Of a DNA stretch of 63,007 nt, positions 6,841-44,722 are shown piece by piece. The DNA comes from Lachnospiraceae bacterium. GTDB taxonomy: Bacteria; Bacillota; Clostridia; Lachnospirales; Lachnospiraceae. The stretch is from contig JAFXCD010000022.1 of the NCBI GenBank assembly GCA_017521605.1, positions 1 to 63,007 on the forward strand, in the 5' to 3' direction. Within the stretch, counting starts at the first letter, position 1. The number at the start of each line of letters is the position of its first letter. Made by a program: the position numbers and the translations under genes. The notes beneath the pieces were generated by a model. That model did not search any database. It was not told the DNA's origin and saw only the letters and a list, made by a program, of their open reading frames with translations.

Positions 6841-7326
6841 TCATCCTACATCTTTATCCGTAATGGTAATAACACCACCATACATACAAGTCAATTGATG
6901 GTCTGTACTTAAAGCAGGAGCACCTTCCACAATATGTACTTTGTCCTCCATTTTATCACTTACATCCTCCCAAGGTGTAAAAGTTTTTGGATTGCATTTA
7001 CAACCACCAAATGTATCCACCACTGCCCCTCCTATTACAAGCATTCCTAAAGGTCCACCAACAAGAGCACCTGCTCCTAAACAAGTAGAAGAAATACTTG
7101 CTGTTGCTGTTATCAATGCTAAATTAAGAGGATTCTTTAATGATTTGCATTGTCCAAAATGCACTATATTCTTACCTGTTCCCGGCTCGTGGTCGTTTTC
7201 ATTTAATAATGGCTCCCCCTCATCAAAACGAATGCCATGATCTTTTGGCGCATTCAAATAATTAACTTTTGTGCCACAGCTACATTCCATATGAGCCAAT
7301 CTGCACACATATTCTTTTCCTGCCAT
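6841..7326 (-). CDS. DUF4280 PAAR-like spike tip protein (cassette A)
   Basis: 161 residues. The pattern fits DUF4280 PAAR-like proteins: an N-terminal Cys-rich start (CRLAHMECSCGTKVNYL), a conserved DHGIRF segment, a central CKCNP, and the closing Cys-Met-Tyr-Gly-Gly-Val-Ile strand (LTCMYGGVITI) after a 'paLstdhqL' segment. Such proteins cap VgrG trimers as the sharp metal-binding tip of contractile injection systems. Unlike its paralogue in cassette B it carries a central hydrophobic stretch (about residues 87-118), as in PAAR proteins that travel with membrane-inserting effectors. It lies 6 nt after the Imm11-like gene and directly before the membrane protein and VgrG-RHS genes. Tip function is inferred from family and context. 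Confidence 0.8.
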   Translation of the reverse strand: MAGKEYVCRLAHMECSCGTKVNYLNAPKDHGIRFDEGEPLLNENDHEPGTGKNIVHFGQCKSLKNPLNLALITATASISSTCLGAGALVGGPLGMLVIGGAVVDTFGGCKCNPKTFTPWEDVSDKMEDKVHIVEGAPALSTDHQLTCMYGGVITITDKDVG

Positions 7327-8928: not shown

Positions 8929-10284
8929 TTAATTAATCAACATCTCTTCTCCACCAAAACTGATTTTATCAGGTAAAATATCAATATATGACGAACCTGT
9001 ATGTAATAAAATCTCATGCTGTCCTTCAATTTCCACCGTTGTATCAGAAGATATTTTAATCGTTCTTGGAGATGTAATATTAATGTTTTGGTCTGAAGAT
9101 ATGGTAATACCATTTTCCTCTTTTAATGAAATGATTATCTTTCCGGTTTCACAAGAAATCACAATCCCATCCGGAGTTAATAATATTTCCTTATTTTCAT
9201 TCCTCCATGATTTATAGAGCGGGTTCTCCTGTGGAGATACATTAACTGAGCTTGCTGCGAAAGCATCAGTTTCTTTTTCAGACGGAAAGAATATTCTAAC
9301 AATATCCCCTTCCTTGGGCATACAATAAAAACCACTTCCATCATCAGAGGAATATGCTGTGGAATATGGGAACCAATAATCCGAATCACTCGCAAACTGT
9401 TCATCAACATCCAACAAATATACCCTTACCTTATCGGCTTTTACTTCCTTTACCTCACCACGGAACATTCTGCCAGAGACCTGGGTGTTTTGTAAAGTAA
9501 GCGGTACACTAAATACTTTATGAGATCCATACTGATAATAACATTTCAATATACCATCTACTAATTCTGCACGCACAGCCACTATATATCCTTCATTGCC
9601 AAACATATCTCCCAAAAAAGCATAGTCATAGGAGGTACCTGTATATACCATACACGAGCCTTTATCATTAGTATTCATCCTACTCTTAAGGATTGTAGAG
9701 CCAGTACGGTTTAACACACTGATTTGTCGTTGTGCACTTGGTACTCCTACAATAATTCTTGGAATCCTCGCCCTAACATCCGGACATATACCAGCCTGAA
9801 AACGGCTAGCCATTCTTCTTACAAATTCCCAATCGGTTTCATTATACTGCATAACAATACCACCTATCTTGGTATCGCTTACATTCATCTCTACCTCTGC
9901 CTTGTCTCCAAACATCTGTTCAAACATCTCGCCATAGGACATTCCTGTTTTTTGAAAGGTCCGACTGTTTCTTGCGATATCCAACAAATAGCTGGTAGAA
10001 ATCAAAGTCACTTCCATTATACAATAAACGTCTTCATACCCAAGTTGCGCGTTCAATACAACACCACAGAACATGTATTGTGGTTGTTCTTCTGCAGTAG
10101 TTATTATTGAAACAAATAACTGGTCTGTCAGACGTGCGGCTTCTTCTTTTGCTATAGAAGCCTCTACCTCTCCTTTAATCCTTGCCGTACTATGCTCATC
10201 AATACAATGATTAATTTCCAATGCTAATATTTTATTAAACTTAATTCCGTTAACTCTAATAGAATCATATGTAATCGTAGCCAT
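8929..10284 (-). CDS. Short VgrG/Pvc8-type spike protein (cassette A)
   Basis: 451 residues, good GGGAAGGG site. The gp27-like part contains the signature MQYNETDWEFVRRMASRF at about 145-162. A gp5-like OB fold follows at about 275-345 with FYCMPKEGDIVRIFFPSEKE. The C-terminal 80 residues are short beta-strand repeats (GITISS, INITSP, TIKISSD, TVEIEG), as expected for the triple-stranded needle. There is no effector domain, so this looks like a structural spike, while the VgrG-RHS protein later in the cassette carries cargo. It is preceded by the DcrB-like gene and followed by the pentapeptide protein. Confidence 0.88.
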   Translation of the reverse strand: MATITYDSIRVNGIKFNKILALEINHCIDEHSTARIKGEVEASIAKEEAARLTDQLFVSIITTAEEQPQYMFCGVVLNAQLGYEDVYCIMEVTLISTSYLLDIARNSRTFQKTGMSYGEMFEQMFGDKAEVEMNVSDTKIGGIVMQYNETDWEFVRRMASRFQAGICPDVRARIPRIIVGVPSAQRQISVLNRTGSTILKSRMNTNDKGSCMVYTGTSYDYAFLGDMFGNEGYIVAVRAELVDGILKCYYQYGSHKVFSVPLTLQNTQVSGRMFRGEVKEVKADKVRVYLLDVDEQFASDSDYWFPYSTAYSSDDGSGFYCMPKEGDIVRIFFPSEKETDAFAASSVNVSPQENPLYKSWRNENKEILLTPDGIVISCETGKIIISLKEENGITISSDQNINITSPRTIKISSDTTVEIEGQHEILLHTGSSYIDILPDKISFGGEEMLIN

Positions 10285-13690: not shown

Positions 13691-15760
13691 CTAGCTACTT
13701 GTCATAACCTTTTTATTTTTATTTAGCTCATTAAAAGTAACATCAAATACACAAGTGTTTTCGCCTTCATTCAATTGATATGTAATATTTTCCTTCTCCT
13801 TCAATATGGTGTTAACATTTGCATTATTCTCTGACCATTTAGCCCTAATACTTCCGGGGCGATTTTGAAAAAATAATTTTATTAACGTATTTTTAAAATC
13901 CTGCGTTTCATGACGTATCACTCTTTCCATGTATACCAAAGTTTGTATAGTGGAAATACTATCAAAAGTACCATTTTGATAAGAAGCACATCTGTCAGTG
14001 GCCATAACTATACCTTGACTGGTTGGCATAAATACAACACCTATACTATGCTTTTCTATATCACTCTTCAATTCATCATTATAGCCTATAATTTCTCTTA
14101 ACATTGTAGTTTTCGTAATATATCTATGATCTGCTTCCATAATTCGATATGCTGTTCCCGGCAAGTCCATCGCTACGCGATTCTTATAATACCTTTTTAA
14201 GTAGTTCGGACACTGCCATGCTGCCACTAATCCTGCAGCCACATATGAAGCTTCTACATATATCCCCTCCAACCATACTCTATATGTACCGGTTGACTTG
14301 ATTTCTTCATCTACAAATTCATCATATGCATATATATTACCTAATTCTATATCCATATATTCCTGAGAAACTATTGTAAAATTAGGTATACACGGAATAA
14401 TAAATTCACTATATCCGGAATTTATAACTCCATAAAATGTTCTATTATAATTATCTAACCCTTCTTTTTCAAATTGAGGAAATGCGGTACTTTTCTTTCC
14501 TACTATGCTTATAAAACAAATAACCTGATACTCTGTCAATATACCCAACAACTCGCTTATGCATTCTTGTGAATGAGTAAGCTCCTTATTAAACAGCCCC
14601 CTTCTTTCTGTGTCACGACTTCTAAATCGTTCCCTAATTTTGTCCTGTGCATTATCCTTCTGATATTCAATTGTAGGGATAATTGCATACCATAGCGCAT
14701 CCTGATTAAAAACCTTGTTATTTATTGTATCAAGATAAACTTTTAATCTATTGCTATTATCCGGAGTCTGCAAGCTTTCAGGCATACAATTAGCTATCAG
14801 TATCGATGGAGGCATTCCACCTACCACATTGTCCTGCATTCCATATTGTTCAAAAAATGTATATATACCTAAAATATTCTGCAAAAGTGGTCGCATTTCA
14901 CCCCATAGGGCCAAAATAATGTTTTGATACAACTCTTGATAAATGTGATATCTATCCAACATATATGCGATATCGTTATCTGTATATGCAGCCATTTCTA
15001 AACATATCTGCATTGCTTCTTCATTACAAATAATTTTACCTTGTGCTTTACATTTTTCGAAAAAGCTTCCAACAAATTGTCGATATGCATCTTTTTGTTC
15101 TTTCTCAATTGAAAACTCATACTCTTTGAATTTTTTTGACATTTTAACAATATCAATTTGAGTATTATTAACATCCTTAATAATCATAGGATTTGTTTTA
15201 TTTATTTTAACTTCTTCTATTTGTTTTTGCAACCCATCTAATATGACTCTTAATAACACTACTCCTTTGTCATAAGCATTTACGATATGTTCCAGCAACA
15301 ATTGGGCATTCTCTATATCTCCAAACAAATACTCTTCTTTAACTTTTTTAAGTGTTTCTTTCAATTCAAGTACCTTTGCTTTTTCAAGTATATCTACCAA
15401 CTTTTTTGCTATATGATTATCAATAGTCCTATCTTTGCTCTCTAAATCTAAAAGTTGAAAAAGTGTCTGAAAAAAGGGCATACTCTTACCAATCCTTATA
15501 TGAAAAGTATTAGAATTTCTCCACAAATTCTCTTTGGAAACACCAAAAGTAAGCTCATTCATATCAACAGTTCCATACAAGCCCGGATTATACTTATTTA
15601 AGAATTCTTCAAAAGATCGAACTAACAATTTTTGATTTATAGTAATTACTTCTTCATCAGTCAAACTTTGCTTATTTTTCACATCACCTATTAAACTAAA
15701 CAAATCCTCTTTTCCCGGATTTATCTCTTCAAAAAGAATTGTCCTATTTGTCTGCTCCAT
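13691..15760 (-). CDS. Contractile-sheath-like protein, cassette A paralogue
   Basis: 689 residues. It begins MEQTNRTILFEEINPGKE, identical to the cassette B paralogue and close to the core 724-residue protein. The C-terminal third has the conserved sheath-like block GIYVEASYVAAGLVAAWQCP, then YRIMEADHRYITKTTMLREI and a closing YMERVIRHETQDFKNTL ... FFQNRPGSIRAKW. Phage and TssC sheaths carry the same kind of C-terminal 'G...A.D...G' and 'R...i.....f' elements. Beyond the first 18 residues it is highly divergent from its paralogues, so it may form a distinct sheath, a sheath-baseplate collar or a cap. It follows the seam repeat and starts cassette A. Confidence 0.65.
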   Translation of the reverse strand: MEQTNRTILFEEINPGKEDLFSLIGDVKNKQSLTDEEVITINQKLLVRSFEEFLNKYNPGLYGTVDMNELTFGVSKENLWRNSNTFHIRIGKSMPFFQTLFQLLDLESKDRTIDNHIAKKLVDILEKAKVLELKETLKKVKEEYLFGDIENAQLLLEHIVNAYDKGVVLLRVILDGLQKQIEEVKINKTNPMIIKDVNNTQIDIVKMSKKFKEYEFSIEKEQKDAYRQFVGSFFEKCKAQGKIICNEEAMQICLEMAAYTDNDIAYMLDRYHIYQELYQNIILALWGEMRPLLQNILGIYTFFEQYGMQDNVVGGMPPSILIANCMPESLQTPDNSNRLKVYLDTINNKVFNQDALWYAIIPTIEYQKDNAQDKIRERFRSRDTERRGLFNKELTHSQECISELLGILTEYQVICFISIVGKKSTAFPQFEKEGLDNYNRTFYGVINSGYSEFIIPCIPNFTIVSQEYMDIELGNIYAYDEFVDEEIKSTGTYRVWLEGIYVEASYVAAGLVAAWQCPNYLKRYYKNRVAMDLPGTAYRIMEADHRYITKTTMLREIIGYNDELKSDIEKHSIGVVFMPTSQGIVMATDRCASYQNGTFDSISTIQTLVYMERVIRHETQDFKNTLIKLFFQNRPGSIRAKWSENNANVNTILKEKENITYQLNEGENTCVFDVTFNELNKNKKVMTSS

Positions 15761-19870: not shown

Positions 19871-20389
19871 CTAAGCATCTAAATCTCCACTATATCCAAA
19901 ACCAAAATTATTATCATCTTCATTATTTTCGCTTTTATATATGCTGATGACTCCTCCATACTTACATACCAAATATGATTCCGATGTTAATGGTTTACCG
20001 TCTCCTGCTAAGCTTTTAACAACAAATTTTTCTTTACAGTTTTGCCATCCTTCCAGTATCACCGGTTTGCATTTTTTCCCATTTACATTTTTTTCCTCCC
20101 CTAATCTGGCATCAGGCTTTAATAAAATATCTTCTGTATTTTCTGGATTCTTTTTGCATACACCAAACCATGCAATATTTTGTTGTTGCATTTTATCTTT
20201 ATTTTCATCACCAACTACAATATCACAATCTAATAAAAAAGGATGCATTTTTTTCTTCGGATCGGCTGTTTCTTCTATATCTATACCCCAACCATGGTCT
20301 TTTATCAAATTAGCGCACCTGGTATGTGAACCACAATCACACTTGAGTACCACTCCTCTAGTAACATAACTTCTTATTTCATCTCCCAT
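19871..20389 (-). CDS. DUF4280 PAAR-like spike tip protein (cassette B)
   Basis: 172 residues. It shares with the cassette A protein the early Cys-rich segment (VLKCDCGSHTRCANL), the conserved KDHGWGIDI, the phrase IAWFGVCK (VHFGQCK in A), a central CKPVI...W segment and the closing SYLVCKYGGVISIY. This is the DUF4280 pattern. It lacks the central hydrophobic insert of the A version. It stands between the Imm11-like gene (3-nt gap) and the large VgrG effector gene, which suits a tip that caps that VgrG. Metal binding by the Cys residues is expected from the family, not shown. Confidence 0.8.
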   Translation of the reverse strand: MGDEIRSYVTRGVVLKCDCGSHTRCANLIKDHGWGIDIEETADPKKKMHPFLLDCDIVVGDENKDKMQQQNIAWFGVCKKNPENTEDILLKPDARLGEEKNVNGKKCKPVILEGWQNCKEKFVVKSLAGDGKPLTSESYLVCKYGGVISIYKSENNEDDNNFGFGYSGDLDA

Positions 20390-26430: not shown

Positions 26431-26446
26431 ATTGATTCCCTCTTCC

Positions 26447-28477
26447 TTAATTCAAGAAAACTGTTCGTTGGCATGTTGTATCATTAAAAGTCACTTCGAA
26501 AACACACTCTCTATTATCTTTATCCAATTTATACTGTATGGTTTCTCCTGTTTTCAAAATGGAATTATAATACTCACCACTTTTTTCCCACTTTCCTATA
26601 AGGCTTCCCGGCCTTTTCTGAAAGAATTGCTCGATTAATGTGGATTTGAAATCCTGTGTTTCATAACGCATCTTTCGTTCTATATAGGTCAATGTCTGAA
26701 TCATACTCAAACTATTTCTCAGACCAAACATCTTTGACATGGCACAATCTTGTATAATTAGCAAACGATTGTTATATGGTGCAAAAAAGATACCACAACA
26801 TTTTCTCTCAATATCACTTAATAATTCATCTGTATAACCCAACATTCCGGTTTTTAGTACACAAGGAAGCTTCACATAACTTTGGTTTTCATGAATCCGG
26901 AAAGAAACTCCCGGAGTCTCTTTATTGATTCTTCTGGGGAAATGCTTCTCCAAGAATTCCGGACACTGAATTGCAGCATATATTCCGGCCGCCACATAGG
27001 AAGCTTCTATCGTACAATTTCTAAGCCACAATTGTTTTCTTGTGTCCCTATATAAAGAATCTTCCGCCTTACTCTCCCGTATATTTATATCCACTTCCAT
27101 ATAGGTATTACTAGAAAGTGCAAAATTGGGAAAGCAGGGATACATATATTCTGCGTACTCCTTTTGCACAATATTTTCCTGACATTCAATCCACTCTTCT
27201 ATCCCATTCTGCGCAATCCATTCTGCGCAAGAATGCTCACCAGACACCGGACTAAAAAATATCTGTATCCTATATTCTGTTAATATTTTAGCCAGAAGCT
27301 CTACCTCTTCATAGCTGTTTATATCATTTAGTAATAACTTATTGCTACCTTTAAAACGTTCTCTTACACCACCACTGTTTTCTATTCCTTTATATTCCAT
27401 ATGCGGAATGATTCCGTACCATATTATATGTTCTGTAAATACTTTTCCATTGGTTGAACTTAGGAACAGTCTTAGCTTTTCTCTTGCCTTTATATCATTT
27501 AGGTCTCTGGGTGTAATATTAGAAATCAGTAATTTAGGTTTCATACCTTCAGCATCAACTGTATACTGTGCAAAATAGGTATAAATTCCCAATAGCTTTT
27601 CTAATAGTGGCCTTAATTGATTCCAATAGCTTTCCACTATATTAATGTGAAATTCCAAACTTTGATAATATATCTCTCTTATTGTGTCGGCATCCTGCTT
27701 TTGCCCATGCATAACTATGTAAAAAAAGGTCTTAAACCATTCTCCATTCTGTTCTTCTTCTAAGATTTCATCTATCCATTTTCTGTACTTATCCAAAGAT
27801 TTCTCAGGAATGGTAATATGCTTATACAAAAAGGCATTTGACACCTTTTCTATACTGGTTTGTATGTTTTCTTTATCTTTTACTATGATTTTTAATACAT
27901 CATCTTCACTTTCTAACGCTTCAAGCTCCTTACTGGAAAACAGTACCACCAAATACACTAATATTACTAAGTTATTATATTTTTCAACAAATTTCTTAAT
28001 TGCTTTTTCAGCTTCTTTTTTTCTCCTATTCCTGAACAATGACAATATATGTGAATACTCTCCATATACTTCTTTCTCATCCGGAAAAGGGAACAATAAT
28101 TGTGTGATATTATCTTCCAGTTCAAGGCAACAATTTGTCTCTCCCTTTATCATATTGGTATAATATCTTAATAATGGATAATCTTCATGGATCTTGGTAC
28201 TGCAAACCTCGTAACCACCACTTTGTCCGATTGTGGTAATCTCTTCTCTGCTTGTTGTACAAATAACCTTTTTATTCGTTCCATCCAATGCCAAATAGAT
28301 CTCAGGTTGTAATTTCCTGATACACTCTTCCAAAGATGACACTTCCAAGTTGTTATGAATTAACTGTAATGTTTCATCCGTAACCCCTTCTTTACTTGAA
28401 TCATGTATATAAGTTAGAAGATTTTCTTTTCCCGGATTTATCTCTTCAAAAAGAATTGTCCTATTTGTCTGCTCCAT
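26447..28477 (-). CDS. Contractile-sheath-like protein, cassette B paralogue
   Basis: 676 residues. The first 18 residues are identical to the cassette A paralogue because the DNA lies in the seam repeat; the rest is far more diverged. The conserved C-terminal blocks are CTIEASYVAAGIYAAIQCPE, VSFRIHENQSYVKLPCVLKT and YIERKMRYETQDFKSTLIEQ followed by FFQKRPGSLIGKW. The large middle region (about 200-330) is charged and helical. The gene follows the Hsp70-like gene after 27 nt. It may make an alternative sheath, or a ring that joins this spike cassette to the shared sheath. Confidence 0.65.
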   Translation of the reverse strand: MEQTNRTILFEEINPGKENLLTYIHDSSKEGVTDETLQLIHNNLEVSSLEECIRKLQPEIYLALDGTNKKVICTTSREEITTIGQSGGYEVCSTKIHEDYPLLRYYTNMIKGETNCCLELEDNITQLLFPFPDEKEVYGEYSHILSLFRNRRKKEAEKAIKKFVEKYNNLVILVYLVVLFSSKELEALESEDDVLKIIVKDKENIQTSIEKVSNAFLYKHITIPEKSLDKYRKWIDEILEEEQNGEWFKTFFYIVMHGQKQDADTIREIYYQSLEFHINIVESYWNQLRPLLEKLLGIYTYFAQYTVDAEGMKPKLLISNITPRDLNDIKAREKLRLFLSSTNGKVFTEHIIWYGIIPHMEYKGIENSGGVRERFKGSNKLLLNDINSYEEVELLAKILTEYRIQIFFSPVSGEHSCAEWIAQNGIEEWIECQENIVQKEYAEYMYPCFPNFALSSNTYMEVDINIRESKAEDSLYRDTRKQLWLRNCTIEASYVAAGIYAAIQCPEFLEKHFPRRINKETPGVSFRIHENQSYVKLPCVLKTGMLGYTDELLSDIERKCCGIFFAPYNNRLLIIQDCAMSKMFGLRNSLSMIQTLTYIERKMRYETQDFKSTLIEQFFQKRPGSLIGKWEKSGEYYNSILKTGETIQYKLDKDNRECVFEVTFNDTTCQRTVFLN

Positions 28478-31186: not shown

Positions 31187-31210
31187 AATAACCCCGATTT
31201 CTTTTGTCTA

Positions 31211-33139: not shown

Positions 33140-33154
33140 TACTACAATTCCTCT

Positions 33155-34018
33155 TTACTTGATTGTAAGAATTACAATCGTTGCATTATCTTTATTTTTC
33201 TTCTTATATGCATTTATTTGTGCAATAATAGTATCTGCAGTCTTCTGGGGGTGAGTCTTTTTAGACAATAGCTTCTCCAGTCCTATTTGTCCCAACACCT
33301 CTACACCATCAGAATAAATGAGTACCTTATCACCCTTTTTCAGGAATATGGGACGATCTGACTCATCTGCCTTCTTAAAACCATCATATCCCAGATAGTT
33401 CACTAATCTGGTATCCGTATTATTGCTTAATGCTTCCTCTCGAGCTATGGCACCTGCATGATACTGGTCTTCCATAAAGTTCTTCACATTTTCTTTGCGG
33501 TTGACCATAATCAGTCTGCCACCTCTGAACACAGCAATATTACTGTCTCCTACCGAGGTCCAAAACAATTTATCATCCTTTAGCACCACAGCAACAAGGG
33601 TAGTTCCACCCTTGGTATCGCCAAACTCATCACGAATGCGTTCATTGGAAAGCATGGCTGATTTCTGAAAATAGTAGGTCAGATTATCCGTCACATCTCT
33701 CTTTTCAAACTCATCCATAAAAGTTTCTGCTGTAATACTGCTGGCTAATTTACCATTTATGTATCCACCGATACCATCTGCCACCAATGCCATGAGACCG
33801 TACTCTCTTATACTGACTGCAAACGAGTCATCCTGTTTTTCTCTGGTACCAATCGTTTGTGCATTACCCACATCTACATGAAGGCTATGGCCGATAGAAT
33901 ATCCCCTGTTATCCCGAAGAAGGCGTATGAGAATACAGGTAATCAGCACGATAACAATGATACCCCCGGCAATTCCCAATGCTATCAACACTTTGCTATC
34001 TGTAATCACTTCCTGCAT
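33155..34018 (-). CDS. Membrane-anchored PP2C-type Ser/Thr phosphatase
   Basis: 287 residues. A TM helix lies at about 10-31 (IALGIAGGIIVIVLITCILI). The PP2C domain keeps the expected motifs: REKQDDSFAVS near 60, LMALVADGIGGYINGKLAS, TSVGDSNIAVFRGGRL, KVLIYSDGVEVLG and the final KKNKDNATIVILTIK, so it is probably active on phosphothreonine. Its start overlaps the stop of the preceding FHA gene by one base (TAATG), implying coupled translation. With the kinase and FHA proteins of the operon it forms a threonine-phosphorylation switch like that of PpkA/PppA/Fha in some T6SSs. Confidence 0.88.
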   Translation of the reverse strand: MQEVITDSKVLIALGIAGGIIVIVLITCILIRLLRDNRGYSIGHSLHVDVGNAQTIGTREKQDDSFAVSIREYGLMALVADGIGGYINGKLASSITAETFMDEFEKRDVTDNLTYYFQKSAMLSNERIRDEFGDTKGGTTLVAVVLKDDKLFWTSVGDSNIAVFRGGRLIMVNRKENVKNFMEDQYHAGAIAREEALSNNTDTRLVNYLGYDGFKKADESDRPIFLKKGDKVLIYSDGVEVLGQIGLEKLLSKKTHPQKTADTIIAQINAYKKKNKDNATIVILTIK

Positions 34019-34563
34019 TAGTATTCTCCCATCTCATCACTTTCTGCGCCATCATTGCTCCACTCAAAATGTTCACCACATAATGGTATAAAGATAAATT
34101 TACTTTGTCCTATCTCAATCACCGAAAATGCACGTAGCTCAACAGGTGTATAAACCGCCTCTCCGTTATGATATGCCAGTCCGGATGAATCTCCGGGGAG
34201 CAAATAGGAAGAACGATTCTTGCCATCATAAATGATAGCTGCATGGTTGATTCTTGATATGGCATTATCTCCCAGAATCTGGATATGCATGTTGTCTGCC
34301 CTACCAATGAAGTTTTTACCCGCATGAATCTTATAATCTTTTCCATACTGAGCACCCTCTATACATACAAGCCATCCTGTAACCGGCTCTACATTTTCAG
34401 CCGCACCGGAAATGGGCATTGTTTTGTCCGGGTCATCCACCATCATTCTGCGGTTGTTTGAATATCTATTTACACTCTCCAGCTCTGTGTTACAATATGG
34501 ACAGGTATCTCCATATTTTCTAGCACTATACATATGTCCGTTTTTACAGCGATTAAGTCCCAT
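34018..34563 (-). CDS. FHA-domain protein with N-terminal zinc ribbon
   Basis: 181 residues. Residues 1-27 hold a zinc ribbon-like segment (CKNGHMYSARKYGDTCPYCN). Residues about 45-53 are DPDKTMPIS, a Thr in an acidic stretch that could be a phosphorylation site. The FHA domain spans about 65-165: YKIHAGKNFIGRADNMHIQI, the core ISRINHAAIIYD (R...S..H pattern in variant form) and a Gly-Gly-like SSYLLPGDSSG segment. FHA domains bind phosphothreonine. It lies between the TM-FHA gene and the active PP2C. Confidence 0.82.
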   Translation of the reverse strand: MGLNRCKNGHMYSARKYGDTCPYCNTELESVNRYSNNRRMMVDDPDKTMPISGAAENVEPVTGWLVCIEGAQYGKDYKIHAGKNFIGRADNMHIQILGDNAISRINHAAIIYDGKNRSSYLLPGDSSGLAYHNGEAVYTPVELRAFSVIEIGQSKFIFIPLCGEHFEWSNDGAESDEMGEY

Positions 34564-34573
34564 ATTTTTCTCC

Positions 34574-35305
34574 TTACTGAATCTGCAGCATTGTGCTTGC
34601 TATATAAATAATATCTCCTGCCTCAACCTCTATAGCACCTACAAGCTTAACATCCATAATTGAATTCTGTGTCAATTTCTTTACTCTTGTTCCGTTTTTG
34701 GAATCTATATCATCTACATACCAGCCCTTTTCTGTATAGTTAAGCACTGCATGTTGCTTCGATATCATCTGTGCTACTGCTGAACCGGACAAATCAATAT
34801 CCACTTCTTCCCCATCAGCACTCTTGCCTATAATTAGTGAAGTCTTTCTTTCCAGACTCCACTCCATAAGTGTTTGTCCTTCTTCATTGATAAGTACTAT
34901 TTTCTTTGCACCTGTCTTGTTACGTTCGTGCTGCTCTTTCTTTGTTGCACTCATAGGACGTCTATCTAAAGGATTGCTTTGAATTTGTGCCTGTTGTGCC
35001 TGATTTGAACTAGCAAGTCGTGCACTATCTCTTACCAAATTCTCCGGCAAAGGCATATTTCTGCTGATTCGAGCACTACTTTCCACATTACTAATCCTGC
35101 CGGTTCCCTTATTTTCTTTTTTATTACCCATAATAATAAACATTGCTGCTATCAGCGCAGCAATTAATACAATACCCAATACACAAAGTACTTTTATCAA
35201 AGTAGTTATAGTTGAATTAATAATAGCACCTGCTATTATTCCCAAAGCGATATACAAAATCGCTTTAATGATTTCCATTGCTATTTTATTTGTTGATTGC
35301 TTCAC
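34574..35305 (-). CDS. Membrane-anchored FHA-domain protein
   Basis: 243 residues, GTG start. Two TM helices lie at about 9-33 and 36-58 (IKAILYIALGIIAGAIINS, KVLCVLGIVLIAALIAAMFI). A Ser/Arg/Gln-rich linker follows. The FHA domain at about 145-243 has SLIIGKSADGEEVDIDLSG, MISKQHAVLNYTEKGWYVDD and IDSKNGTRVKKL, the GR/K-S, SxxH and NG elements of a canonical FHA. A cytoplasmic FHA on a membrane anchor can recruit phosphorylated parts to the cell membrane. It follows the tube genes and a strong intercistronic hairpin. Confidence 0.85.
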   Translation of the reverse strand: MKQSTNKIAMEIIKAILYIALGIIAGAIINSTITTLIKVLCVLGIVLIAALIAAMFIIMGNKKENKGTGRISNVESSARISRNMPLPENLVRDSARLASSNQAQQAQIQSNPLDRRPMSATKKEQHERNKTGAKKIVLINEEGQTLMEWSLERKTSLIIGKSADGEEVDIDLSGSAVAQMISKQHAVLNYTEKGWYVDDIDSKNGTRVKKLTQNSIMDVKLVGAIEVEAGDIIYIASTMLQIQ

Positions 35306-35334
35306 GATTATTCTCTCTTTTCTTTTCAGATATA

Positions 35335-35364
35335 TCAGTCAATGGGCCTAAGCCCACTGACTGA
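35335..35364 (-). other. Intercistronic hairpin after the tube genes
   Basis: A 13-bp stem (TCAGTCAGTGGGC on the minus strand, one G-U pair) with a 4-nt loop lies between the second Hcp-like gene and the TM-FHA gene. No U run follows. It likely stabilises the 3' end of the tube-gene message or attenuates reading into the signalling genes. Confidence 0.7.
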
Positions 35365-35387
35365 ATACTGAATTACTTTAGTTTTGA

Positions 35388-35804
35388 TTAGTTAGCGTAT
35401 CCACCGGTAATAGCGGTAGTGCCAATCTTATCCTTCTTCTGCTTAACAACTAATTCAAAGGTTCCTACGCCTTCGGTATCGCCATAGTTCTCCTTGTAGT
35501 CTACTACGAAAGCATTAGGTAATGTGTATTCACGAACTACCTGACCTGCAGCAGTTACCATTACAGTTACGTTCTTATAGCAGTCTGCCTTTTCAGCAGG
35601 TACCATAGACCATAATGCAAGATCTACAGTAGCTTCAGTACTGTTGTCTAACATGGTAAGAATCTTACCGGTCACTTTCATTGTAACGCCAACATCAGTT
35701 GTTTTAGCGTTAGAATCCTTGGGTGTATCTACACTGAAATCTACAGTCTGAACTGTTTCAACGCCCAAATTGATTGAATCACCAACTTTTAAAATAAATC
35801 CCAT
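35388..35804 (-). CDS. Hcp-like tube protein, second copy
   Basis: 138 residues, very strong AAAGGAGGAG site. It is mostly beta strands, the size of small Hcp/TssD tube proteins. The C-terminal NAFVVDYKENYGDTEGVGTF followed by ELVVKQKKDK matches the Hcp pattern in which a YK-E segment and an alternating final strand build the ring. It is about half identical to the neighbouring 140-residue copy (shared INLGVET/INLGIETV, FSVDTPKDSNAK/FNTDTPNDSNAR, YKENYGD/YKETFGD). Hcp rings stack to form the inner tube and can carry cargo. Two tandem copies could form mixed or alternating rings. Confidence 0.75.
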   Translation of the reverse strand: MGFILKVGDSINLGVETVQTVDFSVDTPKDSNAKTTDVGVTMKVTGKILTMLDNSTEATVDLALWSMVPAEKADCYKNVTVMVTAAGQVVREYTLPNAFVVDYKENYGDTEGVGTFELVVKQKKDKIGTTAITGGYAN

Positions 35805-35827
35805 TGTTATCTCCTCCTTTTATAGTC

Positions 35828-36250
35828 TTAGTACGCAAATCCGCCCTGGTATTCTACGTTAGCGTTCATGTCTTTTTTCTGCTTAACTACTAACTCGAAT
35901 GTACCTACACCGGATTCATCGCCAAATGTTTCCTTATAAGCTACAACATATGCTGTATCCATAATAATCTGGCGTACAACCATTCCGCTGGAAATAACAT
36001 CAACGCTTACCTTGCCATAGCACTGAGCGTCTTCAGCAGGTACAAGTGCCCATGTAGGCAGCTTTACAGTATCATCTGCAACACCTGCGATATTTGCGCG
36101 GATCTTTCCAGTAATGGTAAGAGTCATTCCTAAATCTGTGGAACGTGCATTACTGTCGTTAGGGGTATCAGTATTAAACTTTACTTCTGTTACTGTTTCA
36201 ATCCCCAGGTTAATTGTTTCTTTTGCTTCGATAGTTACTTTAAAACCCAT
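35828..36250 (-). CDS. Hcp-like tube protein, first copy
   Basis: 140 residues, AGGAGG 6-7 nt before ATG. It has the same architecture as the following paralogue: TINLGIETVTEVKFNTDTPN, central LPTWALVPAEDAQCYGKVSV, and AYVVAYKETFGDESGVGTF then ELVVKQKKD. The position right after the large sheath-like gene is the place tube genes take in phage tails and T6SS clusters. Strong ribosome sites and flanking hairpins fit a need for high expression. Assignment rests on pattern and context, not on a structure search. Confidence 0.75.
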   Translation of the reverse strand: MGFKVTIEAKETINLGIETVTEVKFNTDTPNDSNARSTDLGMTLTITGKIRANIAGVADDTVKLPTWALVPAEDAQCYGKVSVDVISSGMVVRQIIMDTAYVVAYKETFGDESGVGTFELVVKQKKDMNANVEYQGGFAY

Positions 36251-36280
36251 CTTCTTCCTCCTATATGTTTTTTATTTGAT

Positions 36281-36302
36281 AAATGAAAGTTGACTTTCAT
36301 TT
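36281..36302 (-). other. Intercistronic hairpin between sheath and tube genes
   Basis: A perfect 10-bp stem (AAATGAAAGT and its complement) around a 2-nt centre lies between the sheath-like stop and the ribosome site of the first Hcp-like gene. It may be a processing or stability element that lets tube message outnumber sheath message. Confidence 0.5.
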
Positions 36303-36308
36303 GATCAC

Positions 36309-38483: not shown

Positions 38484-38508
38484 TTTTTTATCCTTTCTTT
38501 TGTTTTAT

Positions 38509-39384
38509 TTACATTTGCAACATAAGCTGTAGCAAAAAAATGCTCTTTAATCTTTTATTTTTATTTCTATTTAGTGTACTTAGTATCACCTTTTCCAACA
38601 ATGGCGGTATCTCAGTAAAATTCGAAATTGGCGGTATGGTTTCCTGTTCCTCATAATCATCCGGCTCAGGCAACTGGCTATCTGTCAACATATAATACAA
38701 AACAGCACCTATACTATAAATATCCGCCCGATAATCAATCTTACCACCGTGATACAGCTCCGGTGCCGAATATCCCCGGCTCACAAAAACCATATCATTC
38801 TGTTTTTCCTTTTTAAAACTGGCAGAACCAAAATCAATCAGTGTAACACTTTCATCTTCATCATTCAGTATGATATTTGATGGTTTTATATCGCAATGTA
38901 TAATACCTTTTTTATGTATCTGACGAACAATCGCCACCAACTGTTGCATGGTAGAGCGAATAGAGAAATCCTCACCATTCTCAATATAATCCTGTAAACT
39001 CTTTCCCCTTATCTTTTCTGTTATGAGATAGCGCGTCCCATTCTCCGTAAAAGAATCCAGATATTTCAAAACGCAACCTTCATATGGTTTTTTTAAACCC
39101 TTTAATCTTAATATACACTCACATTCTGCATCAAAGGCTTTCTTGAATTTCTGAAATTGGTCTTTATACCCATTCCGTTTACAAACAACTGTTTTTCCAT
39201 CCATATCGCGATTAGCGATACTATAGGGCATAAATTCCTTTATTACAATTTCTCGGTTTTCTTGAAAATCCTCACCAAAATATACAATTCCGCTTTGTCC
39301 CAAATAATGGACTTCCTGTATCATGTATCTTTGGTGTAAAACAACCTGGGGTGCAAGTGCAATATCACTTACTTCTATACCCAT
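38509..39384 (-). CDS. Soluble Hanks-type Ser/Thr protein kinase
   Basis: 291 residues, a bare kinase domain without TM or PASTA repeats. Gly-loop region YLGQSGIVYFGEDF; catalytic Lys in EIVIKEF (Lys49); catalytic loop IIHCDIKPSNIILNDED, with HCD where most kinases have HRD; metal-binding LIDFGSA; activation segment to YSAPELYHGG; APE and later DIYSIGAVLYYMLT. All catalytic residues are present, so it should be active; HxD with Cys makes it a non-RD kinase, often independent of activation-loop phosphorylation. It probably phosphorylates FHA partners and apparatus proteins. It follows the VWA gene and precedes the sheath gene. Confidence 0.9.
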   Translation of the reverse strand: MGIEVSDIALAPQVVLHQRYMIQEVHYLGQSGIVYFGEDFQENREIVIKEFMPYSIANRDMDGKTVVCKRNGYKDQFQKFKKAFDAECECILRLKGLKKPYEGCVLKYLDSFTENGTRYLITEKIRGKSLQDYIENGEDFSIRSTMQQLVAIVRQIHKKGIIHCDIKPSNIILNDEDESVTLIDFGSASFKKEKQNDMVFVSRGYSAPELYHGGKIDYRADIYSIGAVLYYMLTDSQLPEPDDYEEQETIPPISNFTEIPPLLEKVILSTLNRNKNKRLKSIFLLQLMLQM

Positions 39385-39403
39385 CTACTTCCTCATTTCT
39401 GCT

Positions 39404-41188
39404 TTATCTGTTCAAGCAATCACTTTTTGCCGTATATTTCATTTCTATTTCTGACGCATTTTCAGCAAAAGAAATATACAAAATATCTCCTGAAGATATG
39501 GTAATCGGCTTATTAGCCTTAACATTCTGATCGCCCAGAAATATTCCGCCCTCCATACAATGCACCAAAAGTAATTCATTCGTATTTTTACCGGGATAAA
39601 AGCATACCTTTTCTATATCTTTAAAACTCTCTTTTATACCCTTACTCAAGAACAATTCTTCCAGTGTTACACCCTCCGGCGGATAATCTTCCAAGTCCCA
39701 AAGCAAGTCAACTGATTCATTTTTACTTTTTAAATCAATAAAGTATGCTTTAATACTGCCCGAAATAGCATTTTGCGTCTTTTTCCCGCCAAATAATACT
39801 GCTTTAATAATATATGCACAAATCACACCTGCAACCAGAAGAATACCACATACCAATATAATTGTAAGCAATCCCTGATACTGTTTCCATGCCGGCACAA
39901 TCTCTAAACCAAGAGCAATTTCCTTTTTGTTCTGTTTACTGTCCTCTGCTACTATCAGATATTCATTCTTTCCTGCTTTATCTATAGTAACACTCAACAT
40001 ACTTCCGGATAATGTACACTCTGCTTCTCCAGAATTTTGGGTCACACTGTATTTCACAATATCCCCGTCTTCATCCTCAAAAAGACTGCTCACATCCATT
40101 ACCCATGCTTCTTTTGAAGTATACATCTGTTTTTCAACATTCTGACCCTTAGGAGCTTTTCCCAAATCTTCTACCACCGGCGGTGCTGTAGGTACCGGTG
40201 CCGCAACTACCGGCTCTTTTTTCTGAACCCTGACCGTACCTGAAATTAAGGTTGATGTTTTTTCCAGACTATATATGGCTTTGAAGTCATATTGCCCTTC
40301 TTCGTCCATTCTTTGTATCAGATAATTCTTTCCCCGAAAAACCTGTACACCTTCATTCACATTTACCACTTCACAATCAGACATGGGTTCTGTAGAAAAA
40401 AGCACTTCATAACACTTCTGATTCTTCGGAACTTCCGTATGAGTTTCATAACGGTTAACTATTTCCGTTGTTTCGCTTGCCTGAAAATTCGCTTTTCCGT
40501 GTTCATATCCGTAAAAGAATGTTCCTAATACTACCTGAACAAACTGCGTGGCATTATTCACAATAGTAGTACTGCCTCCCGTTGAAGCACTTACCACTGA
40601 TAACAACCCTGTATCTTGGTTATATGCATCAGTATAGCCGACCACATTTATCATAATATCATTGTCTATAGCCAACTGTGTACTTGTTTCCATATCTGCA
40701 TCCGAGTCGGCGGTTGTTCTATTGGTCTTACTATTTTCCAAATCCGTGTTACCATCGGAAATCATAATAATAAAAGCATTGTCATACTCCAATCCCGCTT
40801 CTACAATTGCATTAGTGGCTTTTAACAGTCCTAACCCGTTATCGGTTTCTCCACGGAACTGCAGAGCATCCAATTCCTCAACCAACTTATTTTTGCCTTC
40901 CGCATTTCCCATTGATACCAGGCCGCTATGATAAACAATCTGGTCATTATATGCGGTTACACTAAGATAATCCGTTTCATTACAGATATCCATACATAAC
41001 TTAATCAGCTCTATAGAATGCCTGTGAGAGTCCGTTTTCTTCATGGAACCACTAACATCAATAGCTATAGATATAACATTACATTCTGTTGTTTCTTCAT
41101 TCCCTTCTGCTTTTGTCTGCAATGGTTTCACCATAATTAGTGAAAGCACCATTATGACAGTCAGCACTCTTCTTAACACCAATTTCAT
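39404..41188 (-). CDS. Exported von Willebrand A protein with TM helix and cytoplasmic FHA-like domain
   Basis: 594 residues. A signal peptide ends near residue 27 (PLQTKAEG). The VWA domain at about 37-215 has an intact MIDAS (Asp44-x-Ser-x-Ser, DVSGSMKK) and IMISDGNTD. A beta domain with cadherin/Ig-like patterns follows (about 345-425). A TM helix lies at about 438-462 (LTIILVCGILLVAGVICAYI). The C-terminal 110 residues, predicted to be cytoplasmic, look like an FHA-type beta sandwich (MEGGIFLGDQNVKANKPITI, SSGDILYISFAE), although the phosphate-binding Arg/Ser is not clear. It could sense an outside ligand or the cell wall and pass the state to the phospho-switch inside. Confidence 0.82.
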   Translation of the reverse strand: MKLVLRRVLTVIMVLSLIMVKPLQTKAEGNEETTECNVISIAIDVSGSMKKTDSHRHSIELIKLCMDICNETDYLSVTAYNDQIVYHSGLVSMGNAEGKNKLVEELDALQFRGETDNGLGLLKATNAIVEAGLEYDNAFIIMISDGNTDLENSKTNRTTADSDADMETSTQLAIDNDIMINVVGYTDAYNQDTGLLSVVSASTGGSTTIVNNATQFVQVVLGTFFYGYEHGKANFQASETTEIVNRYETHTEVPKNQKCYEVLFSTEPMSDCEVVNVNEGVQVFRGKNYLIQRMDEEGQYDFKAIYSLEKTSTLISGTVRVQKKEPVVAAPVPTAPPVVEDLGKAPKGQNVEKQMYTSKEAWVMDVSSLFEDEDGDIVKYSVTQNSGEAECTLSGSMLSVTIDKAGKNEYLIVAEDSKQNKKEIALGLEIVPAWKQYQGLLTIILVCGILLVAGVICAYIIKAVLFGGKKTQNAISGSIKAYFIDLKSKNESVDLLWDLEDYPPEGVTLEELFLSKGIKESFKDIEKVCFYPGKNTNELLLVHCMEGGIFLGDQNVKANKPITISSGDILYISFAENASEIEMKYTAKSDCLNR

Positions 41189-41215
41189 ATTCTTATTCTC
41201 TTTTGATACTTTTTA

Positions 41216-41650
41216 CTATTTAGGACGAAAACCAAAAAAGCTGGCAAATTGTTCACTTACATCATTCAAATTTACCCCTGCATTTTTATCACTTTCTTTT
41301 TTCTTCTTGTTAATCTCATCAAACATCATATCGCCAAAATCCATTTTGAAATTCTGTTGAGTAAATCCCGCAAAAGGATTAGCTGTCTGACTGGTCTTCT
41401 TTGGTCCGGTAGCGGCATTGCCGGCAGCACTTGACTGCTCACCTTTATCCTCATCATAAGCTTTGCGCTTTTCTTCGTCACTCAAAACTGAGTATGCTTC
41501 ATTTATATCCTGAAATTTCTTCGCAGCCTCTGCATTGCCTCCGTTAGTATCCGGATGATATTGCTTGGCAAGTTTACGAAAGGCTTTTTTTAAGGTAGCA
41601 TCATCAGCATCTCTGGGCACTCCCAGTATCTTGTAATAATCCTTGCGCAT
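41216..41650 (-). CDS. J-domain (DnaJ-type) protein
   Basis: 144 residues. A J domain occupies residues 4-70: [20 protein letters not shown], the HPD motif in [10 protein letters not shown] and [20 protein letters not shown]. The C-terminal part is low complexity ([14 protein letters not shown]) with [10 protein letters not shown] and a short conserved end; no zinc-finger or substrate-binding domains of full DnaJ. J proteins stimulate Hsp70 ATPase activity. The operon encodes an Hsp70-like ATPase, so the two probably act together. It has a GGAG site and lies 4 nt after the zinc-ribbon gene. Confidence 0.9.
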
Positions 41651-41654
41651 ATTT

Positions 41655-41963
41655 CTATCTCCTGCCTACAGGCATCTTACAAACTGAACAGGCCACACTG
41701 GTTTCCGAAATAGCAGCATAGCATTTCTTACAAATTATAATTCCATGTTTCTTCGTTTCCTGTCTGTTTACTTGTGCCACTTTTTCTCCATTGCTCACCA
41801 CCTGTGCTGTCGAAGCATGATTTTCCACAGGTTTTGCTTTACAAATCTTAATTATCTCCTGTTGATTCTTTAACACATTCAAAACCAACACCAGCGATAC
41901 TACCGCAATCACAGCAGACACAACACTCAAGCCCAGCAAAACATATATTACAATGTCATTCAT
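41655..41963 (-). CDS. Small membrane protein with C-terminal zinc ribbon
   Basis: 102 residues. An N-terminal TM helix lies at about 6-30 ([20 protein letters not shown]). The C-terminus holds two CxxC knuckles ([20 protein letters not shown]), a zinc ribbon. The middle is polar. No family is recognised. Position between the FHA and J-domain genes suggests a membrane part of the signalling module. Confidence 0.7.
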
Positions 41964-41990
41964 AAGTTTTTATTCCTTTTCTATTTACCT

Positions 41991-42926
41991 TTAGTCAATA
42001 TAGAATGTATATTCTTCATCTACAAACTTTATTTTTGTACCATTAAAAATCTCCACGGTAGCCTTACCGGGTATCGCTTTTCCATCCACATATGTTTTAT
42101 TTGTGGAATTATTATCAACAACAAAATAACTGTTTCCTCTTACAATAATTTCTGCATGCTTTCTACTGATTACATCCTTATCTATCAACAAATCCACATC
42201 ATCTTTTCCAACCCAAAAACTGGGTCTGTTAATAACTACCGTTCTTCCGCTTGTTGTATGTACCAGTTTGGGCACCGGAGCCGGTTTGGCAGTTCTTCCC
42301 AATCTTTGTGATGGTGTACTATTTAATGCAGTATCCCAGAATGACGGATCCAACACACCCGTTTCTCCATTATTAGGTTGGCCCATATACTCAGCCTGAC
42401 CTCCCTGATCAGATTGGCCTCCATACTGTCTTTCAAGATTTTCCCAATAAGAAACATCCAACACACCCGTTTCCCCGTCTCCCGGCATCTGTGCAGGATA
42501 AGTATTCACCTGAGTAGGAACATTCGCCTGAGCAAGAACATTCACCTGCTGTCCGCCAGCTATAAATCTTTTAATATCCAGCAATTCCACTCCATTCCAC
42601 GTATCATCCAGAAAATGCAAAAATTCTGTCACCTTACTACAATCCTCTTCACCATCAAAGACACACCCAAAGGTAATTTCCTTCAAAAACGCCTTAATTC
42701 TTGCACCTTCATAAACAGACTCCTCTGTAATCAATTGAAACTGCAGCTGCGAATTCTTCAATGTCATTTTGTCCATATCCAAAACCACTTGAATTCCCTC
42801 GCCCTGTACCTTCTTTAACATATCTACTGTTTGCTTAATCAATTCAAAATATGACAATACACTAATATGCCCTTTTATGTAATCCTTCAGTGATTCACCA
42901 CTTTTTGTATTTGTATTAACCTTCAT
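41991..42926 (-). CDS. FHA-domain protein with two TGVL repeat motifs, first gene of the apparatus operon
   Basis: 311 residues. Residues 1-125 are an alpha/beta domain I do not recognise. Residues 135-210 are a flexible Gln/Pro/Gly-rich linker carrying two copies of a motif (D/N)GETGVLD(V/P)S(Y/F)W at Thr153 and Thr189. The FHA domain at about 228-311 has RPSFWVGKDDVDLLIDKDVI, SRKHAEIIVRGNSYFVVDNN and STNKTYVDGKAI, with Ser-Arg-Lys-His and Asn-Lys-Thr elements of canonical FHA. Repeated Thr with Leu at +3 suits FHA recognition, so the protein may bind its own phosphorylated linker in chains. The first gene after the riboswitch leader. Confidence 0.85.
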   Translation of the reverse strand: MKVNTNTKSGESLKDYIKGHISVLSYFELIKQTVDMLKKVQGEGIQVVLDMDKMTLKNSQLQFQLITEESVYEGARIKAFLKEITFGCVFDGEEDCSKVTEFLHFLDDTWNGVELLDIKRFIAGGQQVNVLAQANVPTQVNTYPAQMPGDGETGVLDVSYWENLERQYGGQSDQGGQAEYMGQPNNGETGVLDPSFWDTALNSTPSQRLGRTAKPAPVPKLVHTTSGRTVVINRPSFWVGKDDVDLLIDKDVISRKHAEIIVRGNSYFVVDNNSTNKTYVDGKAIPGKATVEIFNGTKIKFVDEEYTFYID

Positions 42927-42981
42927 ATATAATCACCAATCTTTCCGTGGTTATAAAAATGCCACTTTACCTTACTATACT

Positions 42982-43009
42982 ATTTTAACACAAATTTCCA
43001 CCATGTCAA
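42982..43009 (-). promoter_or_regulatory. Putative housekeeping promoter directly upstream of the apparatus operon
   Basis: On the minus strand TTGACA is followed after 16 bp by TAAAAT, about 56 nt before the first start codon. It lies downstream of the riboswitch terminator, so it could give basal expression that does not depend on cyclic di-GMP. Confidence 0.6.
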
Positions 43010-43140
43010 TTCTTTGCCTCTTTAATCTGTTAACTTATTGTTTCTATAGCCACATTCTGCAATTCCTTCATGGTTCTTGATAAAAATCTGCGCTTTTGCA
43101 TACCTTATTATATATTTTATTTTTTATCCGTAACAAAATT

Positions 43141-43171
43141 AAAAACGGCTACAATAAAATTATTGCAACCG
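43141..43171 (-). terminator. Intrinsic terminator, expression platform of the c-di-GMP riboswitch
   Basis: An 11-bp stem with two G-U pairs (CGGTTGCAATA and its complement) and a 4-nt loop is followed by TTTTTAATTTT on the minus strand. Its 5' arm shares bases with the 3' arm of aptamer helix P1, so the two folds exclude each other. Ligand binding should therefore favour read-through. Confidence 0.8.
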
Positions 43172-43262
43172 AACCATCAATATAGTACACATAAAACCAT
43201 ACTACTTAGACTTCCTGCTTTGCGTCCCTACATTTCTATAGGTTTGCCCTTGTAAATCGATT
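43167..43262 (-). ncRNA. Cyclic di-GMP-I riboswitch (GEMM-I aptamer)
   Basis: The minus strand carries the GEMM-I conserved core: AAGGGCAAACC, a short hairpin closed by a GAAA tetraloop (TATAGAAATGTA), then GGGACGCAAAGC and a CTAAG joining segment with a second arm, ending in GGTTCGGTTGC. P1 can form between AATCGA (43257-43262) and TCGGTT (43167-43172). The closest known relative in pattern is the Vc2-type aptamer. The next gene downstream on the same strand is the first gene of the contractile apparatus operon. I saw no convincing promoter upstream; a TATAAT at 43265-43270 is too close to P1 to be the start signal. Confidence 0.85.
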
Positions 43263-43642
43263 TAATTATATCATATATTCTCAAAGAAATCTATAGATTT
43301 ATTTACTATAATCAAGCATATCCACATTTACACTTTTCTTCGATAACCATATATTAACACCTTACCGTATATAAATATATGGGGTAATTATGCACCTTAA
43401 AGCAGCAAACATGTAGATTATCGCACGTTACCCAATAATAAAGCCGGCAAAATTTCCTTTAAACATCAGCAGCGATATTTGACCTGATCATACTCACCAA
43501 CAGAATGCTCCTGTATGTATGCGAGTTTGTCAAATCCGTCATATTGTTAACACCGCTTTTTTTGCTCTGACGAAAGATAAATAAATGCAATGGGTAACAC
43601 GCATTCATCATACGCCTGCTGCCACCAGGCTTGCAATGCAAC
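43263..43642. other. Intergenic stretch upstream of the riboswitch
   Basis: About 380 nt with no credible gene. It holds a perfect 14-bp palindrome (AAATCTATAGATTT, 43287-43300) that could be an operator, an imperfect hairpin (43381-43433; GGGTAA...TTACCC ends), and otherwise AT-rich DNA. The promoter for the riboswitch transcript should lie here but was not identified with confidence. Confidence 0.5.
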
Positions 43643-44722
43643 TCATTCAACATCGTAAGGATTCTTTGTCGGCTTAATCGTAAATGTATCGCAGACAACT
43701 TCATCCTTTTCAAAAATATCCGGACCGTAACCGTTTGCAATTCCGTAAAAACGGTCCTCCGTCGCTCCGTAGAAAGCTTTTCCCTTTTTATTATCCCAGT
43801 AAGTGTCCACAGACAGATCCGCTGTAAGGATGGTTGTCCAATCTTTCTGCCCATACTCTCTTACACAAATGTTGCGATACTCAAATGTTCTCGTTTCATT
43901 TGCATAATCATAATCATAATTTTCCATAAACTGCGACATGCCTCCTTCAAAATAGGAGTTATAAAGCTTTGTATCAAAACAGCTGATCAGTGTCCATTCT
44001 CCCGTCGAAAGATCTGCTACCCACTGCTCCACAAAGGTCTTGCCATCTTCATCCTGATAACAGTTTAAGTACATGCGATACCATTTTTCTTCTTCCCATT
44101 TATAGTCGCATATATAATTTGTGCCTTCTCCCTCGCCGCCGAACTTGTTTGTATCACCATCAGAAGGATAAATGCGCTCTGCCTCGATTTTCATTTCATT
44201 GCCCGACTCATCCAGGTACTTAATTTCCCAAAACGACATGATGGCCTTCGGACCGTCCTGTCTCACCTGCAGACCTGCATATGCACCTGTGTAAGCATCA
44301 ATGACATCGTACTTGCTCATCAGATCCTCTTTATTCATTTGCCAATTACAAAGAGACCAATAAGTAGCCATTCCTGCCTTATCCGCTTTAAAATCAATCA
44401 TAAATCCGTCAAATTTCCCGGAAGTAGCACTTAAATCCGGATCGACATACACATTATGTGCCATCCGATTTTCCGGATTAGCTTCATTCTTCGCTTCACC
44501 TGTCGAAACTTTAAGAATCTCATCCCAATTTACACCATTTAAGTCATTTATATAAGTTATCTCTTCCTCTCTTCCAATCGAAAGGTTTTCTTCCACCATA
44601 GGAGTAGCAGTAGGATTTTCCTGTATTTCCAAAGACTCCACTTCTTTCTCACCACATGCTGTCAAACTAAAAACTGCCATATATAGCAAGCAATTTAAAA
44701 CAACCTTTTTTAATTTATTCAT
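43643..44722 (-). CDS. Lipoprotein of the DUF3472 type
   Basis: 359 residues with GGAGGGG before ATG. The signal peptide ends in a lipobox (SLTAC, Cys23), so it is probably anchored on the outer face of the membrane. The mature part is rich in aromatic and acidic residues: ATYWSLCNWQMNKEDLM, YTGAYAGLQVRQDGPKAIMS, YICDYKWEEEKWYRMYLNCY and FVEQWVADLSTGEWTLISCF. These fit DUF3472, a family of jelly-roll-like proteins thought to bind glycans. It reads in the same direction as the apparatus operon but is separated from it by the intergenic stretch and riboswitch. Function unknown. Confidence 0.65.
   Translation of the reverse strand: MNKLKKVVLNCLLYMAVFSLTACGEKEVESLEIQENPTATPMVEENLSIGREEEITYINDLNGVNWDEILKVSTGEAKNEANPENRMAHNVYVDPDLSATSGKFDGFMIDFKADKAGMATYWSLCNWQMNKEDLMSKYDVIDAYTGAYAGLQVRQDGPKAIMSFWEIKYLDESGNEMKIEAERIYPSDGDTNKFGGEGEGTNYICDYKWEEEKWYRMYLNCYQDEDGKTFVEQWVADLSTGEWTLISCFDTKLYNSYFEGGMSQFMENYDYDYANETRTFEYRNICVREYGQKDWTTILTADLSVDTYWDNKKGKAFYGATEDRFYGIANGYGPDIFEKDEVVCDTFTIKPTKNPYDVE

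Follow-up and report, generated by a model that had tools for sequence, protein, structure and literature searches.

A class I cyclic di-GMP (c-di-GMP-I, or GEMM-I) riboswitch stands at the head of a predicted contractile injection operon in a Lachnospiraceae bacterium, on the minus strand of the window (the whole stretch of 63,007 nucleotides analyzed here, contig JAFXCD010000022.1). We consider it likely that this is an ON-type switch through which c-di-GMP raises operon expression by read-through, as a contributing input and not the sole key; here we infer the response to the ligand and the weight of each promoter. The riboswitch itself is an unremarkable member of its class. A link between such a switch and such an operon is observed again in related operons of three other Lachnospiraceae genomes, all within one clade.

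The initial annotation had reported GEMM-I core motifs in this region, and both motifs and coordinates were right, with GGGCAAACC, a GAAA loop, GGGACGCAAAGC, and TCTAAG found on the minus strand. The covariance search that it had proposed returned a full-length match to Rfam RF01051 (model positions 1-87 of 87, window 43258-43161) at 58.2 bits, above the gathering threshold of 35 (E = 8.2e-9). A model built from 22 GEMM-I sequences, R1, scored the aptamer at 72.3 bits, a value reached partly by construction since the window is 1 of the 22 training rows. Across these 22 sequences, 14 of 17 pairs are altered on both sides, a result favored by a structure that comes from the same alignment, and standard pairing occupies 96.4% of pair cells under that same alignment-derived structure. 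In view of the full-length covariance match and the covariation, we set aside a chance motif match. The 151-nt leader has a fold z of -2.56, with 3 of 200 shuffles equally good. The ligand-contact nucleotides are present at columns 11, 38-40, and 100 of alignment A3, positions that we take to be G20, A47, and C92 in Vc2 numbering, and the C that pairs with the ligand is present in all 24 GEMM-I rows compared, a set that leaves out L162 both here and in the comparison of terminator overlap below. Set against the RF01051 class, the window aptamer has the same conserved core, GAAA loop, and ligand-contact positions, and we saw no difference within the aptamer. Judged by its sequence, it is an ordinary class I member that should bind c-di-GMP.

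A G-to-A change at the position that guides selectivity is the rule for cGAMP riboswitches. The window carries G at this position, which is nearly invariant in A3 (position 11), and its genome is rich in GGDEF proteins, with 20 matches. A preference for another cyclic dinucleotide such as cGAMP therefore seems very improbable to us, even though riboswitches for cGAMP resemble those for c-di-GMP and were initially annotated as such, according to the available text of one report (PMC9262584). An 815-aa GGDEF-EAL protein encoded within the window might synthesize or degrade c-di-GMP locally. The genome has two further GEMM-I switches, one (G000:C4:3777-3866, L003) with an overlapping terminator before a 404-aa gene without a Pfam match, and one (C50) that precedes a zinc-ribbon gene and has its terminator further on.

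The intrinsic terminator that had been proposed to follow the aptamer is there, at 43171-43146, as a stem of 11 pairs (4 GC) and a T tail. It is the sole terminator-like site in 42700-43700, where shuffles give 0.3 +/- 0.6. Its 5' arm starts 6 nt before the ligand-pairing C, includes that C, and shares nucleotides with the base of the final aptamer helix, which we take to be P3 in crystal naming, with the C as C92. Overlap with the aptamer was thus correctly foreseen, but the helix involved is this last one and not P1. In a ligand-free calculation of folding during elongation, which leaves out ligand energy and tertiary contacts, terminator pairing is 0.02 at 43153, climbs to 0.89 by 43147, and reaches 0.97 at 43145; after transcription of 43145, pairing at the base of P3 is down to about 0.06, compared with about 0.3-0.5 before, and stays at 0.10 or less. 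By anatomy and by this calculation, aptamer and terminator are mutually exclusive, as expected for an ON switch acting on transcription. The ON assignment of the initial annotation holds for this layout, and for the ligand response it is a prediction.

Two characterized riboswitches illustrate the alternatives. In the ON-type pilM GEMM riboswitch of Geobacter, which senses cGAMP and is tied to pili, the terminator likewise sequesters the ligand-pairing C and excludes the aptamer, whereas the aptamer and terminator folds of the Cd1 OFF switch can coexist, as far as the available text describes them (PMC9262584). Because aptamer and terminator cannot coexist in the window, as in pilM and unlike Cd1, c-di-GMP should permit read-through, and the response in vivo would be in the ON direction. 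The Cd1/Cdi-1 riboswitches of Clostridioides difficile belong to the same aptamer class; in the accessible portions of the sources, one precedes the large flgB flagellar operon and two sit in prophage regions containing the host lysis module (PMC9262584, PMC6200980, PMC3649979). Their logic differs from that of the window in being reported as OFF, with Cd1 letting aptamer and terminator coexist (PMC9262584, PMC6200980), except that the gene after Cdi-1-1 rose with c-di-GMP, opposite to the other C. difficile class I cases (PMC6200980, available text). This precedent is what would favor an OFF switch in the window, with an unseen antiterminator reversing the logic as in most C. difficile class I riboswitches; given that the terminator here takes the ligand-pairing C itself, which sets it apart from the Cd1 type (PMC9262584), we hold such a reversal to be very improbable.

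Downstream of the switch lie 33 same-strand genes, presumably co-transcribed as a whole (Table 1). That this operon encodes a contractile injection apparatus, as the initial annotation had it, is supported by computation: a contractile sheath fold and an Hcp/gp19-type tube fold are predicted from structure, and hub/spike and PAAR-type tip proteins are recognized through PF05954, PF14107, and the 7b5h and 7aef chains. What the machine does would follow from these likenesses. The operon carries three sheath paralogs (30-33% identity).

Table 1. Features of the window discussed in the text (all on the minus strand)
Feature	Position	Strand	Basis or remark
c-di-GMP-I (GEMM-I) riboswitch aptamer	43161..43258	-	RF01051 match; ligand-contact positions kept in alignment A3
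Intrinsic terminator, stem and U tail	43137..43171	-	5' arm contains the ligand-pairing C of the aptamer
Candidate riboswitch promoter	43265..43273	-	TGA-TATAAT (extended -10), weak -35; by eye
Weaker promoter-like site after terminator	43107..43136	-	TTGTTA-18-TATAAT; 10/12 consensus
Second promoter (predicted), between terminator and first gene	42982..43009	-	TTGACA-16-TAAAAT with TG (extended -10); 11/12 consensus
First operon gene, FHA domain, 311 aa	41991..42926	-	PF00498 6.1e-15
DnaJ (J-domain) protein	41216..41650	-	PF00226 8.5e-29
VWA-domain protein	39404..41188	-	PF13519 1.9e-7
Ser/Thr protein kinase	38509..39384	-	PF00069 9.5e-34
Contractile tail sheath protein, 724 aa	36309..38483	-	predicted fold
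Two Hcp-like tube proteins, 140 and 138 aa	35388..36250	-	predicted fold
Two further FHA-domain proteins	34018..35305	-	PF00498 1.2e-9 and 4.7e-5
PP2C phosphatase	33155..34018	-	PF13672 4e-10
Hsp70/actin-like (ASKHA) ATPase candidate, 893 aa	28505..31186	-	motif residues in alignment A6
Sheath paralog 2	26447..28477	-	30% identity to 724-aa sheath, residues 299-708
DUF4280 (PAAR-like) protein	19871..20389	-	PF14107 2.2e-14
Hub (Phage_GPD) with long C-terminal extension, 981 aa	16859..19804	-	PF05954 2.8e-7
Sheath paralog 3	13691..15760	-	33% identity to 724-aa sheath, residues 280-716
Spike/hub protein (GPD, base V)	8929..10284	-	PF05954 1.5e-8; Anabaena CIS chain 7b5h 2.9e-6
Second DUF4280 (PAAR-like) protein	6841..7326	-	PF14107 7.2e-20
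GGDEF-EAL protein, 815 aa	56152-58599	-	in window

The sheath is recognized by fold only: its sequence profile against the PDB found no sheath, returning two weak matches to other proteins, and a viral fold library gave two matches named sheath (6.9e-5 and 3.3e-4) with TM-scores below 0.3. A search of 20 of the 33 operon proteins against PHROGs matched best to families of unknown function (1.3e-10 for a 642-aa protein, 3.2e-4 for a 451-aa hub), with all tail-named matches above 0.01. A phage origin of the sheath gene was set aside, as 50,697 phage records held no tblastn match at 1e-5. At the sequence level, none of the 33 operon proteins has a Pfam match at E 0.01 to TssB/C/E/F/G/K/J/L/M or ClpV, and no AAA+ domain, as in the Cdc48-type ATPase of the eCIS core set, was matched in them by Pfam; a 211-aa protein has a sub-cut-off match to the BREX BrxC domain (0.0043). 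The 893-aa ASKHA candidate has no Pfam match of its own. Within its family, PF00012 was found in 6 of 15 members (best 0.0031), a match to DnaK reached 0.074, and alignment A6 has invariant residues around IDFGTSNTT and DCGGGTTDL, which we read as an Hsp70/actin-like ATPase signature. With the J-domain protein, and with no ClpV by Pfam, this candidate may form a chaperone pair dedicated to assembling or recycling the sheath. The C-terminal extension of the 981-aa hub shows, by eye, hydrophobic and charged helical-looking stretches and is possibly an effector domain.

Solved contractile injection systems (the S. coelicolor CIS, AFP, PVC, the Anabaena CIS, and the T6SS) resemble the window operon in sheath, tube, and hub, by fold or by sequence; the operon differs from them in having three sheath paralogs in one operon and no Tss/ClpV Pfam match. 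Also comparable is an "unknown phage-like translocation system" of Firmicutes, in which DUF4280 likewise lies beside a Phage_GPD hub in Gram-positive bacteria and which, like the window operon as judged by Pfam, is without the conserved T6SS/eCIS neighbors, according to the available text of two reports (PMC8651086, PMC5349215). To that arrangement the window operon adds the predicted sheath and tube, FHA/kinase/PP2C genes, and J-domain/Hsp70-like genes.

A sheath profile run over genome contigs identified at least 351 confirmed relatives, including Paenibacillus, Brevibacillus, Aneurinibacillus, Lysinibacillus, Clostridium, Tepidibacter, and Lachnospiraceae among the matches listed. With the window's own genome included, a sheath match is present in 20 of 397 sampled genomes of its family and in 14 of 101 genomes of its genus, 2 of the latter distant or partial only. 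The best 80 of the at least 351 relatives were taken as named loci, and R1 found a riboswitch in 2 of these 80, L039 and L050. Reading the contig of L048 further upstream (as L212) added a third locus, with two switches in one locus. None of 13 family loci has a riboswitch (the window alone has one among 14 sources that include it), nor does any of 20 further loci at E 0.01, where two weak matches reached 0.14 and 0.97; the counts over 80, 13, and 20 loci overlap, with L191 and L043, and L022 and L047, being the same contigs. Among the named loci, 66 of 80 extend over all 10 kb ahead of the sheath gene (the 14 short ones were listed by hand), and several family and further loci, such as L028, L190, L197, and L199, have less than 5 kb. 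The closeness of switch to operon rests on R1 run over locus DNA; a genome-wide RNA search took in 49 of the 80 loci, L071 left out, and the whole-genome RNA searches scored up to 150 or 70 first-look candidates in each genome. Within the operon family the riboswitch is rare, most relatives being without one.

The first gene of the L039 operon (Acetatifactor sp., sheath 83% identical) follows the end of switch and terminator at a distance of about 30 nt, and in L050 about 20 nt separate that end from the PP2C gene that opens the gene run; both loci leave no room for a promoter between terminator and first gene, and the switch is the only leader seen. In L212 the order is switch, IS200 transposase, second switch, 344-aa gene, 1743-aa Ig-like surface gene, and PP2C, with 19 nt between the last two. 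The gene between the two switches that head this related operon (L212:195-1184) is IS200-like, and the 1743-aa Ig-like (Big_13) protein running into the injection operon (L212:2344-7575) has, by eye, a C-terminal membrane segment.

The ligand-pairing C lies within the terminator stem in 5 of 5 operon-linked switches (the window, L039, L050, and the two in L212). The 19 other GEMM-I switches compared comprise 2 with an overlapping terminator, 11 with a later one, and 6 with none within 80 nt; the difference in overlap, 5 of 5 versus 2 of 19 (Fisher p = 5e-4), is descriptive only, the 19 being no random sample and the rows being related. On a sheath tree of 24 rows, a single Lachnospiraceae clade of 12 rows contains all four loci that carry a switch (100/100; one row is titled only Clostridiales), in which the operon heads of L041, L042, and L044 (3 of the 12 rows) are lost at contig ends. 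Within the clade the distribution requires three gains or losses, and over the 24 rows the clustering of switch-bearing loci is not significant (a value as low arose in 90 of 500 shuffles). L117 was excluded from alignment A4 for one stop codon in its stretch. By a rough estimate, accidental placement of a switch right before the operon head has a probability of about 5e-5 to 3e-4 per genome.

We also considered other RNA elements. Among the leaders of six sources only L039 matched any Rfam family, and in a set of eight sources none did. On whole genomes, RF01051 was found in 4 of 12 from the family, each time on a contig other than that of the operon, and in 3 of 13 from the genus, where it shared the operon contig only in G244; as place and score match those of G299, we equate G244 with the genome of L039.

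Transcription of the window operon may also begin beyond the switch. The candidate promoter of the riboswitch was found by eye and is absent from the list of our consensus promoter scan. Past the terminator, the predicted promoter at 43009-42982, about 55 nt upstream of the first gene, is the best consensus match in 24000-43270. The homology between the window and L043, the closest relative found (sheath 94% identical to the window's), starts at 43013, just before this promoter, and keeps both hexamers; upstream of the shared block, L043 has different DNA, with no riboswitch and no Rfam match. Since the leader region holds 7 promoter-like sites versus 4.9 +/- 2.5 by chance, i.e., not above chance, and two more 11/12 matches exist in 4700-24000, the case for this second promoter rests on its place and its conservation. 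It probably gives the operon a c-di-GMP-independent start in the window genome. Transcripts starting downstream of the terminator are plausible there because the near-consensus promoter is conserved in riboswitch-free L043.

The same promoter could sustain a different account, in which a genuine riboswitch contributes nothing to the operon, yielding only a short terminated RNA while 43009-42982 drives the genes. The rank of this promoter and its sharing with L043 fit that account. It does not extend to L039 and L050, which have no space for such a promoter; the four loci of one clade share the association with the same overlapping terminator; and the other 11/12 matches show that a promoter of such quality can be chance. 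We therefore regard an idle switch as rather unlikely. The second promoter is nevertheless why we describe c-di-GMP as raising expression and not as its sole key, and exclusive control by the riboswitch in the window genome is doubtful. The initial annotation had the switch commanding the operon: recurrence at related operons supports the connection, and the conserved promoter speaks against sole command.

In the ON-type reading that we prefer, RNA polymerase would start a short way before the aptamer. In the ligand-free state, the terminator would form from the 3' strand of the final aptamer helix, ligand-pairing C included, and transcription would stop at about 43137. With c-di-GMP bound, that strand would be held in the aptamer and the terminator blocked, so that polymerase reads into the 33-gene run. 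The second promoter would supply a c-di-GMP-independent share in the window genome.

The tfoY gene of Vibrio itself has a class I riboswitch leader. The Vibrio T6SS is likewise a contractile weapon under c-di-GMP control, but through a regulator protein and with the opposite sign, low c-di-GMP inducing it through TfoY in the available text of the source (PMC6618264). In the window, by comparison, the apparatus operon carries the switch in its own leader, and the switch should respond to high c-di-GMP. A full-text literature search, in which few subscription papers were covered, found no published case of a contractile injection operon whose leader contains a c-di-GMP riboswitch; the indirect Vibrio link was the nearest one found. 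The riboswitch is ordinary and its target unusual, a contractile injection operon being new among the literature found.

Earlier authors had no more than suspected a phage-like system in Gram-positive bacteria; with its sheath and tube, the operon offers a predicted structural basis for it. Our broadest proposal is a tentative one. In this Lachnospiraceae clade, c-di-GMP may directly arm, at the transcript level, a Gram-positive contractile machine of undescribed type, run by an FHA/kinase/PP2C circuit and by a dedicated J-domain/Hsp70-like pair that replaces ClpV, and in some species co-switched, at the transition to sessile life, with giant Ig-like surface proteins. Should read-through indeed respond to c-di-GMP, RNA alone would couple an injection machine to this messenger in gut Lachnospiraceae.
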